Source: Piscinibacter caeni (GTDB lineage Bacteria; Pseudomonadota; Gammaproteobacteria; Burkholderiales; Burkholderiaceae_C). From it: a DNA stretch of 48,736 nucleotides. Below the pieces are notes generated by a model. That model had not been told where the DNA came from and made no database searches. It worked only from the letters and a program-made list of their open reading frames with translations. The position numbers and the translations under genes were made by a program. Of this stretch, positions 29,617 through 30,951 are shown in pieces; the first letter of the stretch is position 1; every line of letters begins with the position of its first letter. Where the stretch lies: the NCBI GenBank assembly GCA_003265685.1, contig KZ836113.1, positions 21,746 through 70,481 of the forward strand, written 5' to 3'.

Positions 29617-29647
29617 TTGACGCAGTGCAGCACCAGCGTGCTACAGT
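29617..29647 (+). promoter_or_regulatory. Promoter of the aroG leader
   Basis: TTGACG (29617-29622) and TACAGT (29642-29647) with a 19-base spacer, slightly long. The predicted start is 29654 or 29655, that is at the leader-peptide ATG. Confidence 0.55.
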
Positions 29648-29654
29648 CCCGGCC

Positions 29655-29729
29655 ATGCGTTCGCGCCAGTATTTCTTTGCGTACTTTTGGTTCTCGCACC
29701 GCCCGGCGGATGGAGAGGCCCCTCTGTAA
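29655..29729 (+). CDS. Aromatic-rich leader peptide of the DAHP synthase gene
   Basis: A 24-codon reading frame. Codons 6-13 read YFFAYFWF: two Tyr, four Phe and one Trp in eight codons, which are the three end products of the aromatic pathway. There is no Shine-Dalgarno, and the -10 box places the transcription start at the ATG, so it is probably translated from a leaderless mRNA. It ends at TAA 29727-29729, 30 bases before a rho-independent terminator. Its function would be to report charging of aromatic tRNAs by ribosome stalling. Confidence 0.85.
   Translation: MRSRQYFFAYFWFSHRPADGEAPL
29701..29709 (+). promoter_or_regulatory. Antiterminator strand of the aroG attenuator
   Basis: GCCCGGCGG inside leader codons 16-19 can pair over nine bases with CCGCCGGGC (29760-29768), which is the 5' arm of the terminator. 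Bases 29702-29709 are identical to the terminator 3' arm (29774-29781). The two pairings exclude each other. Confidence 0.75.
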
Positions 29730-29759
29730 GCAAAGCAGAACGCGCCAAGATCCAAGCAA

Positions 29760-29789
29760 CCGCCGGGCCCTAGCCCGGCGGTTTTTTTT
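29760..29789 (+). terminator. Rho-independent attenuator terminator before aroG
   Basis: Stem CCGCCGGG (29760-29767) with CCCGGCGG (29774-29781), loop CCCTAG, then eight T (29782-29789). Flanking AA/TT can extend the stem. It lies between the leader peptide and the DAHP synthase start, 43 bases before the ATG. Confidence 0.9.
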
Positions 29790-29832
29790 CGCCCCTGCAG
29801 CACTCGAACACCACCCGAAGGAGCCGCCGCCC

Positions 29833-30951
<1,119 letters not shown>

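Follow-up and report, generated by a model that had tools for sequence, protein, structure and literature searches.

The DAHP synthase gene aroG of Piscinibacter caeni is very probably controlled by a ribosome-mediated transcription attenuator, in which a short leader peptide rich in aromatic residues would decide between an antiterminator and a terminator. The gene lies in a stretch of 48,736 nucleotides that was analysed as a whole (the window). Ribosome-mediated attenuation of aroG had been proposed in the initial annotation and is supported here by a conserved reading frame, a run of aromatic codons, an antiterminator strand, a terminator and covariation; these parts, their conservation and their covariation can be read directly from the compared sequences. 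The hallmarks of an attenuator are present in front of aroG: a small ORF with many codons for the end products, an intrinsic terminator between this leader and the gene and, by computation, an antiterminator that lies beside the regulatory codons and is incompatible with the terminator. Taken by itself, the fold of the window's leader deviates only mildly from shuffles (z -1.76); the case for the attenuator rests on conservation. By comparison, the attenuator appears well supported and spread through the order. The elements of the locus are:

29617–29622, + strand: possible -35 box TTGACG, weak, with a 19-nt spacer (from sequence)
29639–29647, + strand: extended -10 box TGC-TACAGT, placing the predicted start of transcription near the A of the leader ATG
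29655–29729, + strand: leader ORF of 24 codons, MRSRQYFFAYFWFSHRPADGEAPL, with ATG at 29655–29657 and stop codon TAA at 29727–29729 (from sequence and comparison)
29670–29693, + strand: regulatory codons Y F F A Y F W F, codons 6–13 (from sequence and comparison)
29691–29695, + strand: region 1, UUCUC, predicted partner of GAGAG of region 2 in a protector hairpin (from predicted fold and comparison)
29701–29717, + strand: region 2, 5' strand of the antiterminator, consisting of GCCCGGCGG (29701–29709) and GAGAG (29713–29717)
29751–29754, + strand: UCCA, predicted extension of the antiterminator, pairing with 29711–29714 (from predicted fold)
29758–29768, + strand: region 3, 5' arm of the terminator, common to the antiterminator
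29773–29789, + strand: region 4, 3' arm of the terminator and T-run
29818–29823, + strand: AAGGAG, Shine-Dalgarno-like, for aroG, 3' of the terminator (from sequence)
29833–30951, + strand: aroG, class I DAHP synthase of 372 aa (TIGR00034 match)

A conserved aromatic leader ORF precedes aroG

The target gene was indeed identified as a DAHP synthase with tldD upstream, as first annotated: its product matches TIGR00034 with 533 bits versus a cut-off of 173, which places it in class I, and tldD is the gene 5' of the leader, ending 65 nt before it. The own genome contains one match to the AroG protein and, in addition, one class II DAHP synthase. The 24-codon leader with YFFAYFWF at codons 6–13 is present as claimed and can be read from the sequence. 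Three leader peptides searched against Pfam and NCBIfam gave no match.

Relatives were sampled in two parts. Within the family 148 of 150 genomes contained aroG, from which the best 30 were taken as loci, own included; the second part comprised the best 80 of at least 594 named aroG loci. Since the best-scoring loci were taken, this sample of 110 loci leans to close relatives. A leader ORF with at least four aromatics in nine codons is located upstream of aroG in 104 of the 110 loci (own included), and these 104 leaders represent 101 distinct sequences. The negative loci are four from Polynucleobacter, one from Cupriavidus and one without upstream DNA. As a control we searched the last 250 nt 5' of aroG in 109 loci, own included, together with the antisense strand and dinucleotide shuffles. 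When four aromatics per nine codons were enough, a loose threshold, 104/109 real, 11/109 antisense and 246/2180 shuffled regions scored; at six or more per nine codons the numbers were 95/109, 0/109 and 4/2180. Aromatic codons of the 104 leaders number 690 in the leader frame versus 210 and 158 in the other frames, in stretches that had been picked on the leader frame. The aromatic codon run that was expected in the tldD-aroG gap of relatives is kept in the window's family as well as across many further families of the order.

This distribution bears on a simpler explanation, namely that the hairpin serves only as terminator of tldD and the leader ORF is incidental. tldD does end close to the leader and could be located in the retrieved stretch for 87 of the 110 loci. 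However, leader, region 2 and terminator occur also in loci whose stretch yielded no tldD (e.g. L069, L110), the aromatic run is specific to the leader frame and greatly exceeds chance expectation, which counters an incidental ORF, and the terminator has a conserved -10 box on its 5' side and aroG on its 3' side. We regard this explanation as extremely unlikely.

Both Phe codons and both Tyr codons are used across the 104 leaders. The conservation of reading frame and aromatic content with either synonymous codon argues against a switch acting independently of translation, be it a ligand-binding riboswitch or a protein-binding attenuator, and a search of the whole window against Rfam gave no match at the gathering cut-off, which speaks against a riboswitch. 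A switch of this kind, which the strong conservation of region 2 at the RNA level would suit, is very unlikely.

In four of the six Polynucleobacter loci (L081, L083, L089, L091) no leader was seen before aroG. There the distance from the tldD stop codon to the aroG ATG is about 30 nt and a TAAAAT box is located directly before this ATG, as if aroG itself were leaderless in these loci.

Distribution of the leader in order and class

We built a covariance model (R1) from 41 family leaders. In the own genome it recovered the aroG leader with an E-value of 2e-19; the other matches there scored E 0.7 (the same terminator on the opposite strand) and E 3.4. Within the order, at least 73 of 300 genomes gave a match, own included, which is a lower bound because about ten candidates were scored per genome. 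Among the 72 matches outside the own genome 69 were examined, leaving out three weak ones, and all 69 adjoin aroG. An aromatic leader ORF was present in 68 of these in a looser search that allowed GTG and TTG starts, the exception being L175; such starts were found in 5 of the 72 leaders of the wider set. A search of the class (369 genomes) yielded six further matches outside the order. Four adjoin aroG; the remaining two lie near the threshold (E 0.006–0.007), have no aroG and are probably due to chance.

The attenuation principle is old, and its aroG form would be widespread across a large order whose members live in soil and water, adding an RNA element that falls below every Rfam cut-off. 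It would provide a testable control for the enzyme at the entry of the shikimate pathway in an order with many environmental and industrial bacteria.

The four class-level genomes outside the order (L183–L186) carry the same type of aroG leader, and a record named Solimonas (L110) has the same kind. These five loci may reflect deep ancestry or transfer, or contamination in the case of single records.

Antiterminator and terminator share one strand

The element GCCCGGCGG at 29701–29709 is an exact nine-base copy of 29773–29781 and complementary to 29760–29768. Both the copy of the 3' arm and the pairing with the 5' arm described in the initial annotation therefore stand, whereas the start of the 3' arm had to be corrected from 29774 to 29773. 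The rho-independent terminator after the leader was confirmed, covering 29758–29789, with a stem of 29758–29768 and 29773–29783 and a T-run at 29782–29789; in shuffled versions of this region one expects 0.5 sites resembling a terminator. The proposed antiterminator strand was likewise found, but its pairing is predicted to be longer than the nine base pairs first assigned to it and to be accompanied by a 1:2 protector hairpin.

Region 1 (UUCUC) lies over the run's final Phe codon plus the codon that follows, and region 2 appears in the comparison of leaders as CCGGCGG plus GAGAG. Mean predicted energies for 102 leaders were -13.0 kcal/mol for the 1:2, -24.7 kcal/mol for the 2:3 and -18.9 kcal/mol for the 3:4 pairing. 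A 2:3 core of at least five pairs is predicted in 97/102 leaders, pairing of GAGAG to the sequence flanking region 3 on its 5' side in 87/102, and the 2:3 energy lies below the mean of linker shuffles in 96/102 (mean z -1.45); these counts are approximate, as alternative patterns set the anchor of the window a few bases early. GAGAG or GAGTG is found in a different frame in five of the 104 leaders, 3' of the stop codon in five and is absent in six. Since it is retained in other frames and beyond the stop codon, GAGAG is conserved as RNA and not as peptide.

A pattern of GGCGG and T-run was detected in 101 of the 104 loci. It was unmatched in L029 and L104, which have the same leader and a T-run interrupted by one base, and in L056. 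In the latter, which stems from a metagenome, leader and region 2 are kept, the terminator is missing and the aroG frame follows directly, reflecting either a deletion or an assembly fault.

Termination in the leader would produce an RNA of about 135 nt. This transcript could act mainly in trans as a small RNA, as thought for Burkholderia ncS54, and rnTrpL and peTrpL of Sinorhizobium meliloti are described to act in trans (PMC7298713). A weak ncS54 match was obtained (RF02871, 25.6 bits versus a cut-off of 43), but it stems from the terminator plus a single interrupted hairpin, and 13 other loci, five of them with the leader, gave no ncS54 match at E-values up to 0.5. A mainly trans-acting RNA is most improbable, and a role in trans would still allow attenuation.

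Accordingly, the leader was not assigned to ncS54, an sRNA of B. cenocepacia whose report leaves aroG unmentioned in its main text (PMC5688073). Neither was it assigned to Phe_leader (RF01859), which scored 16.6 bits versus a cut-off of 55.

Covariation of the paired strands

Anchoring for the covariation count succeeded for 168 of 176 leaders (171 distinct). Compensatory changes in both stems, as envisaged in the initial annotation, were found at one position common to the three strands: regions 2, 3 and 4 read C-G-C in 97/168 leaders and U-A-U in 24/168 (Fisher p 4e-20 for the table of C/U by G/A, kinship ignored). A standard 2:3 pair is present at the tested position in 135/168 leaders and none in 33/168, some of which may be mis-anchored. 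The counts are approximate, since one finder of region 2 misplaces some rows and the one used for covariation may do so. Mapped on a tree of 164 AroG proteins, the 2:3 pair needs at least five switches, versus a mean of 25.6 with shuffled labels; the covariation thus represents several events, not 24. One locus, L069, carries a triple change within the C/G/C family. In the window's family there is hardly any variation, so the paired cores test little there.

The leader RNA probably starts at its ATG

The extended -10 box was identified by comparison of relatives. A consensus promoter scan reported no sigma-70 site near the leader and did not pick up the -35 candidate; judged by eye, -35-like boxes occur in only part of the relatives among those listed. 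The best -10 hexamer ends 6–8 nt 5' of the leader ATG in 100/104 loci, and TGC-TACATT is the form found in 69/104 family loci. With at least 4/6 matches required at 6–8 nt, a -10 box precedes 99/104 leaders, 0/104 aroG ATGs and 56/2080 shuffles. Shine-Dalgarno-like 4-mers were found before the leader ATG in none of the 104 loci and before aroG in 77. Since the promoter abuts the leader ATG and there is no Shine-Dalgarno sequence, the leader RNA is probably leaderless, and in the window's family the peptide would probably be read from such an RNA. In the wider set the -10 box is missing at the expected distance in 27/72 leaders and 4/72 have a Shine-Dalgarno-like 4-mer; a leaderless start may therefore not hold throughout the order and is best supported in the window's family. 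An attenuator leader on leaderless RNA has been described in Streptomyces lividans (PMC8079986).

Proposed mechanism

From these elements we infer the start site, translation of the leader, stalling, read-through and the relevant amino acids as follows. Transcription would start with the A of the leader ATG or a base next to it, and ribosomes would load on the leaderless 5' end. A shortage of charged Phe-, Tyr- or Trp-tRNA would make the ribosome stall within codons 6–13 and cover region 1, leaving region 2 free to pair with region 3 as antiterminator, and RNA polymerase would enter aroG. If all tRNAs are charged, the ribosome would approach the stop codon and cover region 2, allowing the 3:4 terminator to form. 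Assuming the textbook size of the ribosome footprint, 29701–29709 would be clear of a ribosome with any of codons 6–12 in the A site, while codon 13 (Phe) is borderline. At the stop codon the ribosome would start to expose the 5' side of region 2, and the 1:2 hairpin would presumably take over. In an untranslated leader this predicted hairpin would sequester region 2, and because it is predicted to hold region 2, termination would be the default without translation.

Which amino acids may be sensed

The 104 family leaders contain Phe in 104, Tyr in 101 and Trp in 96 cases; for the 72 wider leaders the numbers are 72, 64 and 36. Eight of the latter belong to members of the window's family and have all three aromatics, so that Trp outside the family amounts to 28/64. 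Phe codons are thus present in 176/176 leaders, Tyr codons in most and Trp codons mainly in the window's family. Phe is the best candidate for the main signal, with Tyr and Trp added.

Joint sensing of Phe, Tyr and Trp by one peptide is suggested by the composition of the run. We tentatively propose a leaderless pan-aromatic sensor, in which a shortage of any one of the three would open aroG, whereas trpE of this genome has a separate, probably leaderless, Trp-containing leader; this is plausible, if short of likely. If true, the first step of the shikimate pathway would integrate all three branches through codon reading, and the leader would be a candidate for a natural attenuator responding to three amino acids. 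A sensor of Phe only, perhaps of Phe and Tyr, with Trp and perhaps Tyr as passengers or spacers, is a reasonable possibility without being probable. It would agree with the presence of Phe in every leader and of Trp in 28/64 outside the family, with the TGG codon adjoining the stretch that forms region 1, and with the analogous aroR of Corynebacterium glutamicum, for which Phe limitation is described as effective and Tyr limitation as not (PMC11802643). On the other hand, the window's family keeps Trp in 96/104 and Tyr in 101/104 leaders, and Trp is kept even where its position differs (L039, L054, L074). Trp codons occur in some lineages and are absent from others, so that the contribution of each codon can be weighed by comparison.

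Relation to known attenuators

Enterobacterial trp and pheA leaders follow the same logic of 1:2, 2:3 and 3:4 pairing with the regulatory codons at region 1. They carry a Shine-Dalgarno site and control genes other than aroG. For a DAHP synthase gene, attenuation through an aromatic leader has precedents outside the window's group. The closest system is aroR-aroF of C. glutamicum, described as attenuation of a DAHP synthase gene that is preceded, as here, by an aromatic leader peptide (PMC11802643, PMC4046766, PMC3890552). According to these descriptions, aroR has a Phe-Tyr-Phe motif at which stalling raises transcription under Phe limitation. Compared by description, it differs from the aroG leader in belonging to another phylum, in its shorter motif, in that Trp is not mentioned and in the ineffectiveness of Tyr limitation.

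For Acholeplasma, attenuation of aroF by an aromatic leader has been proposed (motif uORFC-13-1, PMC8632094). As here, an upstream ORF is combined with a terminator; it is stated to have at least one Phe codon and to occur exclusively 5' of aroF. In contrast to our leader, the 24 examples come from another phylum and have a predicted ribosome binding site, and the text on the motif describes no aromatic run comparable to that of the aroG leader. The same source mentions that a mechanism of this type had been hypothesised for E. coli aroF. The attenuator RNA of S. meliloti trpL is reported to begin with the ATG of the leader ORF (PMC7298713), like the predicted aroG leader RNA; it differs in reading Trp only, in its location 5' of trpE(G) and in its alphaproteobacterial host, as far as described. 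In the main text of a survey of attenuation (PMC2965389) the terms aroG, DAHP and aromatic are absent, and in the open-licence literature, supplements aside, we found no description of an aroG leader for betaproteobacteria.

Upstream regions of trpE and the pheA-like gene in the same genome

A further ORF was observed upstream of trpE:

Own genome G000:C77:4937-6418, - strand: trpE with its own upstream ORF (loci L192/L196; relatives L197–L225)

This ORF directly follows a TGCTACACT box (MFTARKHWTRSHDRGAWPWRRWTASLGH). Leaders of this type containing two or more Trp are present in 29 of 30 trpE loci, with the own locus counted, and 28 of these leaders share GAWPWR; the surrounding DNA (GACCGGGGAGCCTGGCCCTGGCG) is highly similar among the loci. 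No T-run terminator was seen behind the trpE leader in the own genome, and two trpE loci gave no match in Rfam; possibly this is a different type of Trp leader. The pheA-like gene of the own genome (L194) showed, with the ORF search applied here, neither an aromatic leader ORF nor a T-run within 420 nt upstream, and the ORF preceding it ends less than 100 nt from the gene.
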